NCBI GenBank assembly: GCA_902795135.1
Contig: CADBJW010000018.1
Span: 1-45,425 of the forward strand
Origin: an uncultured Eubacteriales bacterium
GTDB lineage: Bacteria; Bacillota; Clostridia; Peptostreptococcales; Anaerovoracaceae
Length of the DNA: 45,425 nt
Direction of reading: 5' to 3'
Positions within the stretch are counted from its first letter, which is position 1, and each line of letters opens with the position of its first letter. Both the position numbers and the translations under genes were made by a program. Under the pieces are notes generated by a model, which saw only the letters and a list, made by a program, of their open reading frames with translations, was not told the DNA's origin and ran no database searches. Below, one piece after another: positions 37,399 through 45,416 of the stretch.

Positions 37399-38316
37399 AT
37401 GGGAAAGATCGCTTTTGTATTTGCAGGACAGGGTGCACAGTATCCTGGAATGGGTAAGGACGTCGCAGAATACAGCGCAGCTGCTGCGGAAATCTTTAAG
37501 ATTGCCGACGAAGTTCGTCCTGAAACGAGCAGACAGTGCTTTGAAGGAACCAGCGAAGAATTGCAGGAAACGAGAAACACGCAGCCTTGCATTTTTACCG
37601 TTGACCTTGCTATGGCAGCAGCTTTAGGCGAAAAGGGCATCAAAGCTGACTATACAGCAGGATTCTCTTTGGGAGAACTCGCAGCACTGACTTATGCAAA
37701 GGCGTTCGGTTTCGGAGATGGCCTCAAAATCGTCAGCAAGCGTGGAGAACTGATGCAGATCGCTTCAGAGAAACACAACACTGGCATGGCAGCTGTACTG
37801 AAGCTGTCCGATGAAAAAATCGAGGAGCTGGCCGCAAAGTACGACAACGTTTACCCGGTAAACTACAACTGCAACGGGAACGTTACAGTAGCAGCAGATA
37901 AAGAGCAACTAGCTGCGTTCTCCGCAGATGTCAAGGAAGCACGCGGACTGGCAAGGCCTCTGAAAGTAAGCGGAGCTTTCCACTCACCGTACATGGCGGA
38001 AGCCGCCGAAGAATTTGGCGCGTTTCTAAAAGACGTCGAAGTCGGTGAAGTGGAAATCCCTGTTTATTCCAACAGAACAGCAAAGGCTTATGAAGGCGAC
38101 TATAAGGAGCTTCTGGAAGAACAGATCATCAATCCGGTCAGATGGAAGACCCTCATAGAAAACCTGATTGCTGAAGGCGTTGATACATTTATTGAACTCG
38201 GACCTGGCAAGGCGCTGACTTCAATGATTACACGCATATCTAAAGAAGTGACAGCTCTCAACGTAAGTGATGTTGAAAGTCTGGAAAACACATTAGAAAG
38301 GATGTCAGAATGTTAA
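37399..38316 (+). CDS. fabD: Malonyl-CoA:ACP transacylase (FabD)
   Basis: This 305-residue enzyme loads malonyl groups onto ACP. It starts with AFVFAGQGAQYPGMG, and its nucleophile motif is GFSLGE with S90 (Phe where GHSLGE is usual). GAFHSPYM carries the catalytic His and PVYSNRTA follows. GGGAGG lies about 10 nt before ATG 37399. Its end overlaps fabG by 7 nt. Confidence 0.96.
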   Translation: MGKIAFVFAGQGAQYPGMGKDVAEYSAAAAEIFKIADEVRPETSRQCFEGTSEELQETRNTQPCIFTVDLAMAAALGEKGIKADYTAGFSLGELAALTYAKAFGFGDGLKIVSKRGELMQIASEKHNTGMAAVLKLSDEKIEELAAKYDNVYPVNYNCNGNVTVAADKEQLAAFSADVKEARGLARPLKVSGAFHSPYMAEAAEEFGAFLKDVEVGEVEIPVYSNRTAKAYEGDYKELLEEQIINPVRWKTLIENLIAEGVDTFIELGPGKALTSMITRISKEVTALNVSDVESLENTLERMSEC

Positions 38317-39044
38317 AAGGAAAAACAGCTGTAGTAACAGGCGGCAGCCAGGGAATTGGTAAAGTAACAGCGCTCAAACTTGCCGCAGAAGGCGCTGATA
38401 TCGTAATCATCCACATGGGAACCGAAGAAGATGCTGCAGCAGCATGTTCTGAAATCGAGGCTTTTGGGGTAAAAGCAAAAGCACTCAGACTGGATGTTTC
38501 AGACTTCGGAGCTGTAAAAGAAGCAGTTGCGGACATCATCAAAGAATTCGGTACGATCGATGTTCTCGTAAACTGCGCAGGAATCACCAGAGACGGACTC
38601 ATTGCAATGATGAAAGAAGAAAACTTCGATGCAGTCATCAATGTAAATCTCAAGGGAACATTCAACATGATCAGACACTGCACCCCTTACTTTATCAAAC
38701 AAAAGGGCGGAGCAATCGTCAACGTTTCATCCGTTTCCGGGATCATGGGTAATGCCGGACAGGCGAACTACAGTACATCAAAGGCCGGCGTGATCGGACT
38801 TACCAAGTCAACGGCGAAAGAACTGGTTGGCAGAGGCGTAAGATGTAATGCGGTAGCTCCTGGATTCGTGGCAACTGCGATGACAGAGAACCTGAGCAAG
38901 AACAACAAGCTGGTGGACGCGATTCCGATGAAGAGAATGGCGACTGCAGAAGAAGTAGCTGATGTTATTGTATTCCTCGCATCGGATAAGGCTAGCTATA
39001 TAACCGGCGAAGTCATTAAAGTCGATGGCGGAATCGCAATGTAG
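38310..39044 (+). CDS. fabG: 3-oxoacyl-ACP reductase (FabG)
   Basis: This short-chain dehydrogenase of 244 residues reduces 3-oxoacyl-ACP with NADPH. The cofactor motif is TGGSQGIG (about 10-17), NCAG is near 89, and the catalytic Ser and Y-x3-K lie in NVSSVSGIMGNAGQANYSTSKAG (listed here as separate motifs NVSS and YSTSK). Length and position between fabD and fabF are canonical. Confidence 0.96.
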   Translation: MLKGKTAVVTGGSQGIGKVTALKLAAEGADIVIIHMGTEEDAAAACSEIEAFGVKAKALRLDVSDFGAVKEAVADIIKEFGTIDVLVNCAGITRDGLIAMMKEENFDAVINVNLKGTFNMIRHCTPYFIKQKGGAIVNVSSVSGIMGNAGQANYSTSKAGVIGLTKSTAKELVGRGVRCNAVAPGFVATAMTENLSKNNKLVDAIPMKRMATAEEVADVIVFLASDKASYITGEVIKVDGGIAM

Positions 39045-39059
39045 TGAGAGGTAATATTT

Positions 39060-40295
39060 ATGGAAAGAAAAGTAGTAGTTACCGGGATGGGTGCCATCAC
39101 TCCTCTCGGCAATGATGTAAATACATTATGGGACAACCTGATTGCCGGCAAGCTGGGAATCGGCCCAATCACAAGATTTGATACAACCGACTATGCCGTT
39201 AAGATCGGTGCAGAAGTCAAGGATTTTGATCCAAAGGACTACATGGAAAAGGCAGATGTCAGAAAAGCTGACCATAACGTTCATATGGCCGTTGCGGCAG
39301 CCGTACAGGCAGTGAACGACAGCGGCATCGAAGGCCATTTCGATCCGGAAAGAACCGGCGTATATTTCGGTTCTGGAATCGGCGGAATTGAAACCTTCGA
39401 AGATACTTATACGAAGCTTTTGAATAAGGGACCTCGTTTCGTATCTCCATACTTTATTCCGATGATGATTCCGAATATGGCAGCAGGAACCATCGCCATT
39501 CGCTATGGCATGAGAGGCCCGGCACTTCCTGCCGTTTCCGCTTGTGCATCCGGAACCAATGCCATTGGGGAAGCTCTTAGAGCGGTCAGACACGGATACA
39601 CCGACGTTATGGTAACCGGCGGTACAGAAGCGGCGCTGACTAGATCCAGCGTAGCAGGCTTCATCAAGATGCAGGCCCTGAACATGACCGACGACGTGGA
39701 GCACGCCAGTCTGCCGTTCCATAAGGACAGAGGCGGATTCGTAATCGGTGAAGGTGCAGGCGCACTGGTTATCGAAAGTGAAGAGCATGCACTGGCAAGA
39801 GGCGCAAAGATCTATGCGGAACTGTGCGGATATGGTTCCACATGCGACGCCTACCACATGACAGCTCCGGATCCGGAAGCAAAAGCAGGTTCCGCAGCGA
39901 TTCGTGACGCGTGGGTAGAAGGCGGATCTCCGGATGCTTCTACGATTTACGTAAATGCGCACGGAACGGGAACACCGCTCAATGACAAATCCGAAACGAT
40001 TGCACTGAAGAAAGTCTTTGGTGAAGATGCATACAAACTGATCATCAGTTCAACCAAGTCCATGACAGGACACATGCTGGGCGGAACTGGCGCAGTAGAA
40101 GCCATCGCTTCCATTCTGGCCATCAAGGAAGGCATGATTCCTCCAACGATCGGTCTGGATACACCGGATCCGGAATGCGACCTGGACTACACGCCGCTTA
40201 AGGCGCGTAAGGCAGATGTGGATTTCGCACTTTCCACTTCACTGGGATTTGGCGGACACAACGCATGCATTTCATTCAAGAAGTACGAAAAGTAA
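39060..40295 (+). CDS. fabF: 3-oxoacyl-ACP synthase II (FabF)
   Basis: This condensing enzyme of 411 residues elongates acyl-ACP with malonyl-ACP. The active-site triad is in place: SACASGTNAIGEAL with nucleophile C162, NAHGTGTPLND and KSMTGHMLGGTGA. It is the first of two fabF-like genes in this operon and the more canonical of the pair. GAGAGG lies upstream of ATG 39060. Confidence 0.95.
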   Translation: MERKVVVTGMGAITPLGNDVNTLWDNLIAGKLGIGPITRFDTTDYAVKIGAEVKDFDPKDYMEKADVRKADHNVHMAVAAAVQAVNDSGIEGHFDPERTGVYFGSGIGGIETFEDTYTKLLNKGPRFVSPYFIPMMIPNMAAGTIAIRYGMRGPALPAVSACASGTNAIGEALRAVRHGYTDVMVTGGTEAALTRSSVAGFIKMQALNMTDDVEHASLPFHKDRGGFVIGEGAGALVIESEEHALARGAKIYAELCGYGSTCDAYHMTAPDPEAKAGSAAIRDAWVEGGSPDASTIYVNAHGTGTPLNDKSETIALKKVFGEDAYKLIISSTKSMTGHMLGGTGAVEAIASILAIKEGMIPPTIGLDTPDPECDLDYTPLKARKADVDFALSTSLGFGGHNACISFKKYEK

Positions 40296-40320
40296 GCGTA
40301 CGAATAATAGGAGAAAACCC

Positions 40321-40764
40321 ATGAACAAACAGGAAATAATGCAGATCCTTCCGCACAGAGACAATATGCTCCTCGTCGAAGAAGCAGAAGTCGAAGAAGT
40401 TGAAGGCAAGGATGGAGAAATCAAGAAGGTATCTCACGGGAAGTATCACGTTAGAGGAGATGAATTTTTCCTGCAGGGACATTTCCCGGGCAATCCCATC
40501 GTTCCGGGCGTGATTCTTTGTGAAATGATGGCACAGTCCACCTGTGTGCTTTTGCAGGACGCCATGGAAGAGGGAATGAGCTCCCTGTTTACAGGTCTCA
40601 AAGACGTTAAGTTCAAAAATCCTGTAAAACCGGGCGACACATTTGAATCAAAATGCGAAATCACGAGAAAAATGCCGCCATTCTATTTCGCCAAAGGCGA
40701 AGGCTATGTAGATGGCAAACTGGCTGTCAAAGCTGAATTCTCATTCGCGTTAGTCAAGGGCTGA
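40321..40764 (+). CDS. fabZ: 3-hydroxyacyl-ACP dehydratase (FabZ)
   Basis: This hot-dog-fold enzyme of 147 residues dehydrates 3-hydroxyacyl-ACP. The catalytic His is in ILPHRDNMLLVEE (H12) and the Glu in FPGNPIVPGVILCEMMAQ. An acidic insert after the first strand (about 24-34, VEEVEGKDGEI) is slightly unusual. AATAGGAGAAAA precedes ATG 40321. A hairpin lies just after the gene. Confidence 0.95.
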   Translation: MNKQEIMQILPHRDNMLLVEEAEVEEVEGKDGEIKKVSHGKYHVRGDEFFLQGHFPGNPIVPGVILCEMMAQSTCVLLQDAMEEGMSSLFTGLKDVKFKNPVKPGDTFESKCEITRKMPPFYFAKGEGYVDGKLAVKAEFSFALVKG

Positions 40765-40769
40765 TCTAC

Positions 40770-40799
40770 AGGTGGCAAGAGATGATTCTTTTGTCACCT
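40770..40799 (+). promoter_or_regulatory. Intra-operon hairpin between fabZ and the second fabF
   Basis: AGGTGGCAAGAG (40770-40781) pairs with CTTTTGTCACCT (40788-40799) over 12 bp including two G-U pairs, with a 6-nt loop. No T-tract follows, so this is more likely an mRNA processing or stability element than a terminator. It lies 23 nt before the next start codon. Confidence 0.5.
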
Positions 40800-40822
40800 T
40801 AATCATAGAGGAGACAAATCAT

Positions 40823-42049
40823 ATGAGCAAAAAACTTGTTATCACAGGCATGGGAATGATTACGCCAATCGGCATCGGAGTCGACGCTTATTGGGAAAAT
40901 CTCATTGCCGGTAAAACAGGAATCGATTATATAACCAGAATAGATACAGAAGAACTGCCGGTCAAATTTGCCGGCGAATGTAAGGATTTCGTTGCGAAGG
41001 AATTCATGCCGCGCAAGTTATCCAGCGAAATGGACCGGTTCATGCAGATGGCCTTTGTCGCTGCAGGACAGGCCATCGAAGACTGCGGCGGAATCGCAGA
41101 TCCATATAGAACCGGTATCACCATCGGCACTGCCCTGAATGGCATTATGACCATCACAGAAACGGAACGGTCTTACACCAAGTCCGCCTTCAAGAGAGTC
41201 GGTCCGAGATTTTTGCCGAAATCACTGGGCAATGTTTGCGCTTCACAGATTGCGATTGCAAACAACATTCACGGGCCAAGCATGACCCTTAATACGGCGT
41301 GCGCTTCCGGTGGAGATGCCATGACCCTGGCCGCTATGTTCATTCAGAGCGGGATGGCAGACGCCATGGTCGTTGCGGGAGCAGAATCCGCAACGGAACC
41401 GATCCTGATTCAGTCACTGGCAGGAGCCCAGGCTCTGTCCACCTTTAACGAGGATCCACAGAGAGCCTGCAGGCCTTTTGATAAGGACCGGGACGGCTTC
41501 GTGCTCGGCGAGGGTGCGGGTTCCGTTGTCATAGAAACCGAGGAACATGCAAAGGCAAGGGGCGCGAAGATTTACGCAGAACTTGCGGGCTACGGCAACA
41601 ATACCGACGCGTATCACCCGGTTACTCCGAGACCGGATGGCGAAGGCGAGATTCTTTGCATGAAACAGGCCATGGAAGTGGCCGGCATTAAACCGTCAGA
41701 CATTGGATACATCAATACCCACGGGACTGCTACCGTCAAGGGCGACATGGTGGAAGATGAATCCGTACGGGAAGTATTCGGTGAAGACGCAAAGGGATTG
41801 ATACTGAATTCAACAAAGGCCGCAACAGGGCACATTATGGGTGCAGGCGGTATTACAGAGACGATTACGTGCATCAAGGCACTGGAAACAGGTCTGATTG
41901 CGCCGACGTTGAATCTGAAGGAGCAGGATCCTGATTGTAAACTCCACTACGCCAAGGAACTGACCAAGGTTGAGGGCTTGAAATATGCTATGTCCAATGC
42001 CTTTGGATTCGGAGGACAGAATTCCAGTATCATCGTAGGGAAGTATTGA
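40823..42049 (+). CDS. fabF: Second 3-oxoacyl-ACP synthase (FabF-like, KAS II)
   Basis: This 408-residue condensing enzyme keeps the full triad: NTACASGGDAMTLAAM with C160, NTHGTATVKGD and KAATGHIMGAGG. It diverges clearly from the first copy, for example GIDYITRIDTEELPVKFAGE near the start. It could take a different chain length or do the unsaturated-chain step, or partly stand in for the fabH missing from this operon; this is inference. GAGGAGA precedes ATG 40823, and the earlier in-frame start lies in the hairpin. The stop overlaps the marR start. Confidence 0.93.
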   Translation: MSKKLVITGMGMITPIGIGVDAYWENLIAGKTGIDYITRIDTEELPVKFAGECKDFVAKEFMPRKLSSEMDRFMQMAFVAAGQAIEDCGGIADPYRTGITIGTALNGIMTITETERSYTKSAFKRVGPRFLPKSLGNVCASQIAIANNIHGPSMTLNTACASGGDAMTLAAMFIQSGMADAMVVAGAESATEPILIQSLAGAQALSTFNEDPQRACRPFDKDRDGFVLGEGAGSVVIETEEHAKARGAKIYAELAGYGNNTDAYHPVTPRPDGEGEILCMKQAMEVAGIKPSDIGYINTHGTATVKGDMVEDESVREVFGEDAKGLILNSTKAATGHIMGAGGITETITCIKALETGLIAPTLNLKEQDPDCKLHYAKELTKVEGLKYAMSNAFGFGGQNSSIIVGKY

Positions 42050-42516
42050 TGATGAAAGATTTTTCGAATCAGTTTAATAAAGTGATCGTTGAGGCATACC
42101 ATAACCTGCTGTTGATGGAGGAAACGAAGCGCAAGTACAGCAGCGCCAGTTTTTCCTTTCGGGACAGGAATGCGGTGGCGTTTCTTCTCCGAAATCCGGA
42201 GGGAACCAGAATCAGTGATCTGGCTGATTATCTGAAAATCAGCCGGCCCTCCACGACGACACTGGTCAAGAAGCTGGAGAAAAACGGTCTTGTGCAGCGC
42301 GTACGCAAATCCAATGACAGCAAGGTGACTCTGTTAAAGTGCACGGGAAAAGGCAAACGCTACGCCTCATTTCAAAGACGTTACACAGACCGCCTTACGA
42401 AGCGGGTGAACGAAGAGTTCACGGAGGAAGAAAAGGAAATACTATACAAAGGCTTTTGCAAGCTGAACGAGTTTTTCATCGAAAGCATCAACGAGTCTGA
42501 AGAAAAACATAAATAG
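42049..42516 (+). CDS. MarR family regulator, probable FabT-like repressor
   Basis: This 155-residue winged-helix protein has the MarR plan. An N-terminal helix pair is followed by HTH residues about 58-82 (RISDLADYLKISRPSTTTLV), the charged wing at about 88-101 (VQRVRKSNDSKVTLL), and a long C-terminal dimerisation helix. Its place inside the fab operon and the palindromes at 36065-36120 suggest a FabT-like repressor of fatty acid synthesis. FabT is usually encoded at the front of the cluster; here it is at the end. AGGGAA (42037-42042) is 6 nt before ATG 42049; ATG 42052 is also possible. Confidence 0.85.
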   Translation: MMKDFSNQFNKVIVEAYHNLLLMEETKRKYSSASFSFRDRNAVAFLLRNPEGTRISDLADYLKISRPSTTTLVKKLEKNGLVQRVRKSNDSKVTLLKCTGKGKRYASFQRRYTDRLTKRVNEEFTEEEKEILYKGFCKLNEFFIESINESEEKHK

Positions 42517-42525
42517 GAGATCGAA

Positions 42526-43884
42526 ATGAGCAGAATAAGGTTTTATGCTGCATTATATATTTCTAAAATCATAGCTTTTGGAATCGGTCTGGTTGCGAAA
42601 GAGCGCGGAACAAATCTTCCGGGCTCTATTGCGCTTAAAATCGACCCTGGATTCATTAGCCACATCAAAGGCCTGGATCCGGAGAATACGATTTTTGTTA
42701 CTGGGACGAACGGCAAAAGCACCACGACCAATCTCATGGCCCATGTCTTTGAAAAGGCAGGAATCCGGGCGGCGGTCAATCTGGCTGGAGCAAATCTGAT
42801 CGGCGGAGCCGTCGTAACGCTTTTGCATAATTGCGGACTGGATGGCAAGCTGAAAGCGGACGTTGTACTGTTGGAAACGGACGAGCGTTTTATGCCGATC
42901 ATCCGCAAGCAGCTGCCGGCGAAGCACATTTGCGTGACGAACATACAGAAGGATCAGGTGCAGAGAAACGGTGAACCGGACATTATCTGGCGTAAGATCG
43001 CATCGGCCATCGACGAAGATGTGACGTTGTATGTAAACGGGGATGAGCCAAATGCCCTGAGTCTGGGCCGCATTGCCGGGAAATGCGTCACCTATGGAGT
43101 CGATGAGAACACGTCGTCCTTTGACAAAAAAGATGACTTTTTCTCTGTGACAATGCCTTGCCCGGTCTGCCACGAGCCAATTGTCTTTGACAAGTACAAT
43201 ATCGATAACATTGGCCCGTTCCATTGCAGTGGATGTGGATTCGGAGTGATCAAGAACGATTATCAGGCTCACCATATCGACTTTGACAGGAAAACCTTCT
43301 CCGTAGATGGTGCAACCTATGATTTCAAGTACAGCACGCCATATTTCCTGTACTGTTATGTAGCGGCGCTAACGTTGGCCCGGGAGTTTGGGGTTTCGGA
43401 AGATAAAATCAGCGAGGCCTTTGAAGATTTCGTGAATATCGGCGGAAGAATGGAAACCATTCAGGCCGGCGGCAAATCCATCAAATACTTGCGTATGAAG
43501 CAGGAGAATCCGGAGACCGTACAGTCCGCGCTCAACGTCATTGCGGACGACCCAACGGAAAAGCTGTTTTTGCTGGGCCTGGATGAACTGGTGGATTTTG
43601 AACCGCATTACACAAACACCTTTTATACCTTTGACTGCGATTTCCGGAAGCTGGTCAACTCCAATGTGGGAAGGTGCATCTGCTTTTCGGGGACGGTTGC
43701 CTATGATGCGGCTCTCCGAATGCTATACGACGGGTTTGATCCGGAGAAGCTGACGGTACTGCCAACCAACGATGATAAGACCATCGTCGATGAAATGGCG
43801 AAATATGATATTGATAACGTATACTTGATCACATGGCTTCACAAATTTGAGTCTTTGGCCGAATATGCCAAGGCACATATGTGA
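42526..43884 (+). CDS. murT: MurT-like Mur ligase (lipid II isoglutaminyl synthase subunit), divergent
   Basis: This Mur-ligase-family protein has 452 residues. The ATP loop is VTGTNGKSTTT (K64), and a four-cysteine zinc ribbon is inserted in the central domain (C212, C215, C234, C237), as in MurT. With GatD, MurT amidates the D-Glu alpha-carboxyl of lipid II to D-isoglutamine. The C-terminal domain, which in MurT meets GatD and supplies an Asp to its triad, is divergent here: after GLDELVDFEPHYTNTF I do not find the usual DGRDVSWLWD-like stretch. TAGGAGATCG precedes ATG 42526, 9 nt after marR, so it is probably read from the fab promoter. Confidence 0.88.
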   Translation: MSRIRFYAALYISKIIAFGIGLVAKERGTNLPGSIALKIDPGFISHIKGLDPENTIFVTGTNGKSTTTNLMAHVFEKAGIRAAVNLAGANLIGGAVVTLLHNCGLDGKLKADVVLLETDERFMPIIRKQLPAKHICVTNIQKDQVQRNGEPDIIWRKIASAIDEDVTLYVNGDEPNALSLGRIAGKCVTYGVDENTSSFDKKDDFFSVTMPCPVCHEPIVFDKYNIDNIGPFHCSGCGFGVIKNDYQAHHIDFDRKTFSVDGATYDFKYSTPYFLYCYVAALTLAREFGVSEDKISEAFEDFVNIGGRMETIQAGGKSIKYLRMKQENPETVQSALNVIADDPTEKLFLLGLDELVDFEPHYTNTFYTFDCDFRKLVNSNVGRCICFSGTVAYDAALRMLYDGFDPEKLTVLPTNDDKTIVDEMAKYDIDNVYLITWLHKFESLAEYAKAHM

Positions 43885-43911
43885 TTCAAATAGATCCATT
43901 TGGTGAGAAAT

Positions 43912-44769
43912 ATGAATAATTTTGATAAGTTCAACAGGATAAGAAACAATGCGGATCGCAATACCCTCAACATTACAAATGAGAGTGAAGTATCCGGAGA
44001 TAATGGATTTAAGTTTTTTCATATACTGTGGCTGTATCCGGATGTGCTGAACATCCACGGCGGACGCGGGGATATCATGGGGCTTTTGCATATCTGCAAT
44101 ATGCTGGATATTCCGGTTGAAATCGAACGCTGGGATACCATGCGCAGCGACATTCCGTGGGAGTGGCCGGATCTGATCTACATGAATAGTGGGGAACTCA
44201 AGTGCGCGGAAGACGTGGTAAAGGCGCTCCAGCGGCAGAGAAACGGGCTGGATAAGTTCCTGGAAAGAGATAAGTACATTATTGCAGTTGCAAGCAGCGG
44301 CGCGATTTTAGCGGAGAGCACAAAGAAACTTGACGGGAGCACCGTCAAGGGGCTGGGGCTTTTGGGCATGCAGTGGAAAGAACGGGAATCCGTCTGGGGT
44401 GACGACATCTGGTTCAAGACGGAAGACGGACAGGAAGTCATCGGCAATCAGATTCAGGTTGCGGATGTGTTCCTCAATGAAGGCCAAAAGCCTTTGGGCG
44501 AAATCGTCTACGGCAGAGGGAATCACGGCGAAGGTGATGAAGGAGCCAGAACCGGCAACGTTATTTTCACCAATTGTCTGGGACCGCTTGTTACGAAAAA
44601 CCCGGAATACATCGCGGGACTGCTCCGGGACGCAGCTGTGGATGCCGGAATCCAGGTAAACGGAGTGATTTCAGAGAGCGATGTAGAAATCGAAAGAAAG
44701 TCAGCAGAATATATTAAGAATTTCATGCTGGAGAAAATCAAAAAAGCAGAAAAGAAAGCCGAAAAGTAG
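43912..44769 (+). CDS. GatD-like glutamine amidotransferase homologue without catalytic Cys or His
   Basis: This 285-residue partner of MurT has an N-terminal extension of about 36 residues, then the GatD start LWLYPDVLNIHGGRGDIMGLL, DLIYMNSGE, and the late landmarks PLGEIVYGRGNHGEGDEGA and GPLVTKNPEYIAGLL. The elbow that should read AVCGGYQ reads AVASSGA (residues 125-131), so the cysteine position is Ala127. The TYLHGPLL histidine is Leu223 in TNCLGPLV. Glutaminase activity by the known mechanism is therefore not expected. ATG 43912 follows GGTGA (43902-43906); TTG 43900 and GTG 43903 are unlikely. The C-terminus is Lys/Glu-rich. I leave the gene symbol open. Confidence 0.82.
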   Translation: MNNFDKFNRIRNNADRNTLNITNESEVSGDNGFKFFHILWLYPDVLNIHGGRGDIMGLLHICNMLDIPVEIERWDTMRSDIPWEWPDLIYMNSGELKCAEDVVKALQRQRNGLDKFLERDKYIIAVASSGAILAESTKKLDGSTVKGLGLLGMQWKERESVWGDDIWFKTEDGQEVIGNQIQVADVFLNEGQKPLGEIVYGRGNHGEGDEGARTGNVIFTNCLGPLVTKNPEYIAGLLRDAAVDAGIQVNGVISESDVEIERKSAEYIKNFMLEKIKKAEKKAEK

Positions 44770-44844: not shown

Positions 44845-44921
44845 GGCGGTGTAGCTTAGTTGGCTAGAGCGTCCGGTTCATACCCGGAAGGTCGGTGGTT
44901 CGACTCCACTCGCCGCTACCA
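44845..44921 (+). tRNA. tRNA-Met(CAT)
   Basis: Acceptor GGCGGTG pairs with CGCCGCT (two wobble pairs). The anticodon arm is TCCGG-TTCATAC-CCGGA with anticodon CAT, the T loop is GGTTCGACTCC, and CCA is encoded. G1-U72 pairing argues for elongator Met rather than initiator. Confidence 0.95.
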
Positions 44922-44925
44922 TTGT

Positions 44926-45001
44926 GGGCGCTTAGCTCAGCTGGGAGAGCACCTGCCTTACAAGCAGGGGGTCACAGGTTCGAGCCCTGTAGCGCCCACC
45001 A
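44926..45001 (+). tRNA. tRNA-Val(TAC)
   Basis: Acceptor GGGCGCT pairs perfectly with AGCGCCC. The anticodon arm is CCTGC-CTTACAA-GCAGG with anticodon TAC. CCA is encoded. Confidence 0.96.
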
Positions 45002-45031
45002 TAACAGATTTGATCTGTTGCTTAAAAATGC

Positions 45032-45108
45032 GGTCCGGTAGTTCAGTTGGTTAGAATGCCAGCCTGTCACGCTGGAGGTCGACGGTTCGAGCCCGTTCCG
45101 GATCGCCA
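45032..45108 (+). tRNA. tRNA-Asp(GTC)
   Basis: Acceptor GGTCCGG pairs with CCGGATC (one G-U). The anticodon arm is CCAGC-CTGTCAC-GCTGG with anticodon GTC. The discriminator is G and CCA is encoded. A short hairpin AACAGAT/ATCTGTT (45003-45019) separates it from tRNA-Val. Confidence 0.96.
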
Positions 45109-45116
45109 ATTTTTAT

Positions 45117-45191
<75 letters not shown>

Positions 45192-45238
45192 CTAATCTTT
45201 TCGGAGACCGCTCCGAGAGATTACAATGAAATGATGTG

Positions 45239-45314
45239 GTGGGTATAGTCAAGTGGTTAAGACAGCGGGTTGTGGCTCCGTTATGCGTGGGTTCGAATCC
45301 CACTATCCACCCCA
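45239..45314 (+). tRNA. tRNA-His(GTG)
   Basis: Acceptor GTGGGTA pairs with TATCCAC. The anticodon loop TTGTGGC has anticodon GTG. The discriminator C311 can pair with the G at 45238 (the G-1 that marks tRNA-His). CCA is encoded. A hairpin TCGGAG/CTCCGA (45201-45216) lies upstream. Confidence 0.95.
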
Positions 45315-45341
45315 TTTTTTTCGGGAAAAATTAATACACGT

Positions 45342-45416
45342 TGGGGTATCGCCAAGCGGTAAGGCAACGGATTCTGATTCCGTCATGCGCAGGTTCGAAT
45401 CCTGCTACCCTAGCCA
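45342..45416 (+). tRNA. tRNA-Gln(CTG)
   Basis: Acceptor TGGGGTA pairs with TACCCTA (one G-U). The anticodon arm is ACGGA-TTCTGAT-TCCGT with anticodon CTG. CCA is encoded. The cluster may continue past the window. Confidence 0.94.

Follow-up and report, generated by a model that had tools for sequence, protein, structure and literature searches.

MurT/GatD pairs without a glutaminase triad in Clostridia: a possible amino-acid ligase of the cell wall

The closest described systems to the gene pair analyzed here are the MurT/GatD enzymes of Staphylococcus aureus and Streptococcus pneumoniae. In S. aureus, neither MurT nor GatD works alone, and MurT combined with the GatD variant C94G used NH3 at pH 8.5, while ammonia was not used at pH 7.5 (PMC3266927). 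Replacement of the triad Asp of S. aureus MurT by Asn (D349; Noldeke et al.) completely abolished the activity in vitro according to the figure legend, or severely reduced it according to the text (PMC6113224); the variant D355A of S. pneumoniae MurT had 28% of activity left and gave no viability (PMC6085368). For S. pneumoniae GatD, roles were described for Asp32, the oxyanion glycines and the glutamine-capturing Arg142, and mutation of the MurT residues K59, N85, D112/E113, D136 and R140 left 1–13% of activity (PMC6085368).

The window, i.e., the whole analyzed stretch of 45,425 nucleotides from contig CADBJW010000018.1 of an uncultured Eubacteriales bacterium of the family Anaerovoracaceae, contains a murT gene and a gatD homologue separated by a gap of 27 bp (Table 1). 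The nearest NCBIfam family of the window GatD is GatD (67.6 bits, E 1e-18), with the equivalog cut-off of 400 bits missed; the window MurT, with scores of 156.8 and 169.8 bits, missed the equivalog cut-off of 800. A single MurT_C match was found in the assembly. The original prediction had named a second, intact gatD elsewhere in the genome as a finding that would overturn it; profile searches of the contigs of this 91%-complete assembly revealed no second GatD. Two other GATase_3 matches, of 174.7 and 99.6 bits, are located on one contig and fall in the CobB/CobQ range by score only, and two further matches, judged from their ORFs, are HisH and a protein resembling DJ-1. No murE match was found in the window's own assembly.

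Table 1. Positions of the gene pair and of its former triad residues in the window.
Feature	Positions	Strand	Basis
murT, class A, 452 aa, Mur ligase half	42526..43884	+	ORF and profile/alignment reading
gatD homologue, class A, 285 aa, glutaminase fold	43912..44769	+	ATG at 43912, stop at 44769
Ala127 codon GCA (GatD), at the catalytic Cys position (S. aureus C94, S. pneumoniae C107)	44290..44292	+	
Leu223 codon CTG (GatD), at the catalytic His position (S. aureus H189, S. pneumoniae H206)	44578..44580	+	
Asn364 codon AAC (MurT), at the triad Asp position (S. aureus D349)	43615..43617	+	

The genomic surroundings of the pair are represented by a fatty-acid synthesis operon (fabD, fabG, fabF, fabZ, a second fabF and a MarR-type regulator), directly followed by murT–gatD (37399–44769; names read from ORFs). 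ORFs of similar length, judged by length only, are located upstream of murT in loci L030–L033. Six consecutive tRNA genes (Met, Val, Asp, Cys, His, Gln) follow gatD in the window at 44845–45416.

The nucleophile segment of the window GatD is IAVASSGA, and its histidine segment is TNCLGPL. When aligned by HMMER with the structurally solved chains 6fqb, 9sq9, 6gs2 and 5n9m, the window GatD has Ala127 at the place of the catalytic Cys and Leu223 at that of the His; together with the codons, this bears out the original prediction that both catalytic residues have been replaced. The loss is wider than had been predicted, since the oxyanion glycines, the capturing Arg and the Asp of MurT are gone as well, and many genera are affected. 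By alignment, Asp32, Gly72, Gly73 and Arg142 of S. pneumoniae GatD correspond to Gly51, Asn92, Ser93 and Val161 of the window GatD; Gly74 is retained as Gly94, i.e., two of the three oxyanion glycines are lost. The features of a glutamine-dependent amidase that are missing from the window pair thus comprise the Cys, the His, the capturing Arg and an intact oxyanion Gly-Gly-Gly of GatD, as well as the triad Asp of MurT. Judged from these alignments, the glutaminase half of the window pair is gone.

In MurT, Asn364 aligns with S. aureus D349, so that the Asp with which MurT serves GatD is also lost. This position is occupied by Asp in 21/21 canonical MurT rows, whereas the class A rows (n = 54), representing the class of the window, contain Asn (49), Val (3) or Asp (2). 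The window MurT retains the P-loop GTNGKST (60–66), GAN (N90), DE (119–120), D143, R147 and the Cys4 zinc ribbon. Residues K64, N90, D119, E120, D143 and R147 are invariant in alignment A2, comprising 45 MurTs of all classes, and read by alignment position as K59, N85, D112, E113, D136 and R140 of S. pneumoniae; the zinc-ribbon residues C212, C215, C234 and C237 are conserved in the same alignment at a level of at least 90%. Because these mutation-tested residues are invariant across the 45 MurTs, the ATP-dependent carboxylate-activating half looks functional, whereas the ammonia-supplying half does not. The window MurT also has the altered loops KQENPET and PHYTNTFY, and two loops of MurT are lengthened by insertions.

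Besides the canonical class of MurT proteins, there are three altered ones, A (including the window), B and C; the class labels are motif-based, and a few B rows (G021, G336, G327) are motif outliers, G021 also by branch length. The MurT set, a subset of all MurT_C matches, combined those that had loci with 80 regions selected to cover many genera, and 10 rows representing other Mur ligases and fragments were excluded ahead of the motif table. Among the 128 genomes with classed MurTs, 52 contain class A, 37 class B, 14 classes B and C, 4 class C and 21 the canonical class; in the loci fetched from these genomes, class A was never found together with B or C. Pairs with a dead GatD, i.e., one without the catalytic Cys and His, span 32 genus codes (25 + 7) in five families, with intact frames.

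Among the 36 searched relatives under the window's genus code, 16 have a class A copy spanning both sites, and all of these show the same loss, with A, G or S at the Cys position and L at the His position; Ala127 and Leu223 are therefore not an assembly error. Lineage-wide conservation of the replacement, which the original prediction had proposed to examine, thus holds for these 16 relatives but is not genus-wide, as a canonical pair with Cys and His is encoded by G036, which falls under this genus code. The identity of the G036 copy is as low as 26%; a close relative combining intact residues with an otherwise similar sequence, which by the original prediction would have spoken against it, was not found. 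Other relatives under this genus code belong to class B or gave no match. Two deeply diverged pairs of MurT and dead GatD (GNSP/EGP and GNAG/IGP) on long branches were found in G021, also assigned to the window's genus code (L139, L140).

The GatD homologues adjoining MurT number 124, including one of another family; Cys and His are both absent from 110 and both present in 13, and 1 is truncated and lacks the Cys. An altered MurT is accompanied by a dead GatD in 137/137 pairs with an assigned neighbor (one GatD, that of G327, being truncated before the His), and a canonical MurT by a Cys/His GatD in 46/46 full-length pairs; one more canonical MurT (G424) adjoins a truncated GatD that keeps the Cys. 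No mixed pair, combining a dead or canonical MurT with the opposite type of GatD, was found among these 137 dead, 46 canonical and 1 truncated canonical pairs, the totals being summed over successive searches (124 + 12 + 1 (G735) dead; 16 + 24 + 6 canonical).

Eight of the 149 MurT rows have no assigned partner. For G036 and L140 of G021, the GatD copy is kept under another locus; in G343, GatD is encoded on the opposite strand; G002 is located at a contig end; the nearest GatD of the second G063 copy lies upstream; and G156 has no GatD frame of at least 60 aa. The remaining two, L098 (G194) and L108 (G227), are MurT-like genes keeping the DGxD motif, with no GatD found in the stretch or elsewhere in the genome (E 1e-15).

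Trees were built from two thinned MurT sets, with 92 and 55 members; class A is located on one side of a branch (SH-aLRT 100), as are the canonical MurTs in both trees (SH-aLRT 98 and 100) and class C in one tree only (SH-aLRT 100). As each of these classes sits on one side of a branch, the trees are compatible with one loss of catalysis. Within class A, the sub-clade of the window (SSG type, including G269 and G749) is separated from the sub-clade of E. limosum (GTS type). Both a canonical pair and one of class A are present in the genome G749, which has no gene of the ornithine-racemase-like (Orr) family.

All finite dN/dS estimates are in the range of 0.035–0.193 for GatD and 0.024–0.054 for MurT, with most synonymous sites saturated; the sole clean pair (dS 0.53) gave 0.038 for GatD and 0.028 for MurT. 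GatD evolves faster than MurT. Since the loss is common to genera and families, MurT co-varies with GatD without exception and dN/dS is low, the dead pair is, on this comparative evidence, held by purifying selection and not decaying, which agrees with the selected repurposing proposed in the original prediction.

In each dead class, conservation is higher in the 11 named columns of the former GatD active site than in the rest of GatD (Mann–Whitney p 0.002, 0.002 and 0.006). Compared with other canonical-invariant columns, the same 11 columns are not detectably less conserved, and their consensus residues are mostly changed. Fixation of the rebuilt site is incomplete in class A, where 6/11 named columns have a consensus residue that does not reach 70% of the (weighted) rows. 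The sharpest conservation gains of class A, located near the named columns in sequence or elsewhere, are W40, H49, E95, E157, G163-D164-D165 and Q180-I181; of these, E95, E157, G163-D164-D165 and Q180-I181 recur in the genomes taken as E. limosum and A. woodii. Residues R52 and Y200 are near-invariant in class A and were found in some canonical GatDs too. In classes B and C, T-G-N is newly conserved together with Glu131. A subunit serving as a mere brace would be expected to drift at the old site, yet these columns stay conserved with new residues, which suggests that the old glutaminase site was rebuilt with class-specific residues, at positions placed by alignment alone.

In type B cell walls, a diamino acid is joined to the α-carboxyl of D-Glu, and the classical clostridial cases are E. 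limosum and Acetobacterium; Microbacteriaceae and Erysipelothrix are type B groups as well. The class A pair is present in G791, taken as E. limosum ATCC 8486, and in G554, taken as A. woodii DSM 1030. The wall of E. limosum contains Ala, Glu, Lys, Orn and Ser (PMC4791908), and a review table gives the B2-alpha wall type for Eubacterium (PMC11382707). For MurE, the motif D(D,N)P(N,A) has been assigned to lysine (PMC6113224). In the family of E. limosum and A. woodii, MurE has DNPA in 8/9 class A carriers and EDPS in G693 (G749 being treated apart). In the same search, DNPR or DNSR was read for the 16 canonical carriers. The MurE motifs refer to the fetched copies, which do not include every second murE copy (e.g., that of G495). 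MurE with DNPR, the motif usual for DAP stems, was found in the class A relatives of the window and in the class A carriers G522, G763 and G735; class A therefore also lives with probable DAP stems. In a DAP wall, D-Orn on D-Glu would be a decoration and not a needed cross-bridge. Beside the class A pairs of genera g34 and g97 (L068, L083, L088, L097, L107), MurE has an ASPRTDDP-like motif or ACPKTDDP, not the usual DNPR.

Within the family of the window, an Orr-family gene adjoins gatD in the genera g34, g50 and g97 (L068, L071, L083, L097, L107); the protein of L097 scores 284 bits against a cut-off of 480 bits, and its substrate is therefore uncertain. The murT–gatD–racemase adjacency was also found outside the window's family, in G522 of family f26. 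In g34 and g97, murE is located on the other side of the pair, and G090 contains a partial murE at the contig end. Outside the window's family, an Orr-like gene is present in 12/13 class A carriers versus 1/16 canonical carriers (p 3e-6, all 29 class-checked), and the same comparison by family gave 3/3 versus 1/10 (p 0.014); both tests correct only partly for shared ancestry. In the canonical exception, the neighbors of the gene were read from ORFs as ornithine aminomutase. Within the window's family (f1), Orr-like genes are present in 75/80 genomes, including 6/9 of those without MurT; they were found in 33/34 class A carriers and in the window's genome, and are not specific there. Because the gene is near-universal in this family, MurT-less genomes included, the association carries no weight in it.

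In the window's genus, loci L205, L206, L207, L210, L216 and L223 contain, with or without MurT, a cluster of murE, an acyl-CoA ligase-like gene, a gene of a small protein, presumably C_GCAxxG_C_C-like, and an Orr-like racemase gene; a gene of an FAD-dependent protein is present in most of them.

In three MurT-less relatives (L211, L212, L213), genes of an ATP-grasp ligase and an aspartate-type racemase adjoin murE, an arrangement that suggests a D-Asp bridge. From this context with murE and an amino-acid racemase in the three genomes, we infer that the ATP-grasp gene is D-Asp-ligase-like. Such a gene was found in 1/63 genomes with a dead MurT versus 12/17 others (p 1e-9); by genus without g1, the ratio is 0/20 versus 8/10 (p 8e-6), and within g1 p is 0.04, with ancestry only partly corrected. 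The genome G030 contains a class A pair and the D-Asp-ligase-like gene together. This near-exclusion was dropped as sole proof of a bridge function, as it may follow the stem type indicated by the MurE motifs. The DapF gene (PF01678) was also rejected as a class marker: it is present in 46/80 genomes and does not separate the classes.

Pairs of classes B and C adjoin an ATP-grasp gene in 32 loci of 16 genera (L109, L117, L118, L120, L121 and others). The ATP-grasp protein of L120, the only one scanned, belongs to ATPgrasp_ST (PF14397), and in L120 and other loci two dead pairs flank the ATP-grasp gene in one operon.

Our tentative but quite plausible reading of the sequence comparison is that the class A pair uses ATP to ligate a D-amino acid (probably D-Orn or D-Lys) to the α-carboxyl of D-Glu, i.e., performs type B chemistry. 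According to this reading, MurT would activate with ATP a carboxylate of the lipid-linked stem peptide, most likely the D-Glu α-carboxyl as in canonical MurT, and would no longer be fed with ammonia from glutamine. GatD would be a non-catalytic subunit, the rebuilt old site of which, together with the altered MurT loops, would bind a new amine. The likeliest amine in class A would be D-ornithine or D-lysine, both of them D-amino acids carrying two amino groups; an ornithine-racemase-like enzyme would provide it, and its attachment would represent the defining step of type B peptidoglycan. We infer the acceptor, the identity of the amine and its binding by GatD. As the SSG and GTS sub-clades differ, the amine of the window could be other than that of E. 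limosum. An extension of the proposal to all dead pairs is possible but more doubtful: MurT with dead GatD would form a family of amino-acid ligases using the old pocket as an amino-acid site, in which class A joins D-Orn or D-Lys to D-Glu as the missing type B enzyme, and classes B and C, encoded in operons with ATP-grasp genes, add other residues.

Free NH3 is abundant in the gut and rumen, and the pair could alternatively perform ammonia-dependent amidation, in which MurT forms D-iso-Gln and GatD persists in a structural or allosteric role, by analogy with the ammonia-dependent carbamoyl phosphate synthetase I. This explanation is rather unlikely. It agrees with the kept ligase residues of MurT and with the activity of the S. 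aureus C94G complex with NH3 at pH 8.5, and the mutual dependence of the S. aureus subunits would explain why a dead GatD may still be needed; however, the same enzymes made no use of ammonia at pH 7.5 (PMC3266927). Neither new class-specific conserved residues around the old pocket, nor insertions in two MurT loops, nor two different dead pairs per operon in other genera, nor association with an amino-acid racemase are predicted for a mere scaffold. Among the three options of the original prediction, a different modification is consequently better supported than free ammonia, which keeps the C94G precedent; the former is favored by the new class-specific residues, the co-occurrence and adjacency of the racemase, and the presence of the pair in genomes taken as those of organisms with a recorded type B wall.

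Attachment of some other amine to this carboxyl (e.g., glycine, a different L- or D-amino acid, or a diamine such as cadaverine or putrescine), possibly varying among classes A, B and C and the sub-clades of A, is unlikely, although polyamines are present on the D-Glu α-carboxylate in Negativicutes (PMC10628300). Such variation would fit the different re-conserved residues (T-G-N..E) and the ATP-grasp ligase neighbor of classes B and C, as well as the position of the window in a sub-clade other than that of E. limosum, with DNPR-type MurE in its relatives; however, the Orr-like gene is the sole amino-acid-supply gene found beside class A pairs. Mur ligases are versatile, and the window copy adjoins the fatty-acid synthesis operon and not wall genes, so that an acceptor outside peptidoglycan (a peptide natural product, a cofactor or another polymer) was also considered. 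It is quite improbable, given that the acceptor-side residues of MurT are kept, that the pair is linked to murE and the racemase in g34 and g97 and to the racemase in g50, and that it nearly excludes the D-Asp-ligase-like gene adjoining murE. The probability of a decaying gene, a recent mutation or an assembly error, to which the loss of all triad residues and the faster evolution of GatD might point, is practically nil: this explanation is refuted by the intact frames in 32 genus codes, dN/dS well below 1 and the exceptionless co-variation with MurT.

Among the literature matches listed in a limited search, none dealt with dead GatD classes or named a type B ligase. The class A pair represents a concrete, testable gene pair for a step of type B wall synthesis in culturable organisms; Eubacterium is genetically tractable, and a CRISPRi system for E. 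callanderi is present in the literature. If the proposed function is true, the pair would supply the missing enzyme of type B peptidoglycan and would be a clear case of a glutaminase subunit that lost catalysis and was then rebuilt. The annotation gatD in many Clostridia is accordingly not to be taken as evidence of iso-glutamine formation.

Similar to MurT/GatD of S. aureus and S. pneumoniae, the window pair is a two-gene operon encoding a Cys4-zinc-ribbon Mur ligase and a subunit of the GATase_3 fold, with P-loop, acceptor and metal residues; unlike them, it is devoid of the Cys-His-Asp triad, two oxyanion glycines and the capturing Arg, and has longer MurT loops and new conserved residues. 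By its sequence, the pair is MurT/GatD by descent, and it is not classed as a glutamine-dependent amidase by function, because the tested glutaminase features fail. Mammalian carbamoyl phosphate synthetase I contains a class I glutaminase domain that has lost its Cys and is retained as a structural part of the synthetase. The window pair likewise retains a glutaminase domain with a lost Cys in a synthetase; in contrast to carbamoyl phosphate synthetase I, the evidence favors a new amine over ammonia, and the partner Asp and the pocket are changed as well. The type B formers, represented by the genomes taken as E. limosum and A. woodii, share the class A pair, an Orr-like gene and MurE with DNPA, whereas the window belongs to another sub-clade, and the MurE of its relatives has DNPR. 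A lipid intermediate:diamine ligase activity is reportedly present in Selenomonas, and the reaction proposed for class A would resemble it in joining an amine other than ammonia to the same carboxyl of D-Glu.
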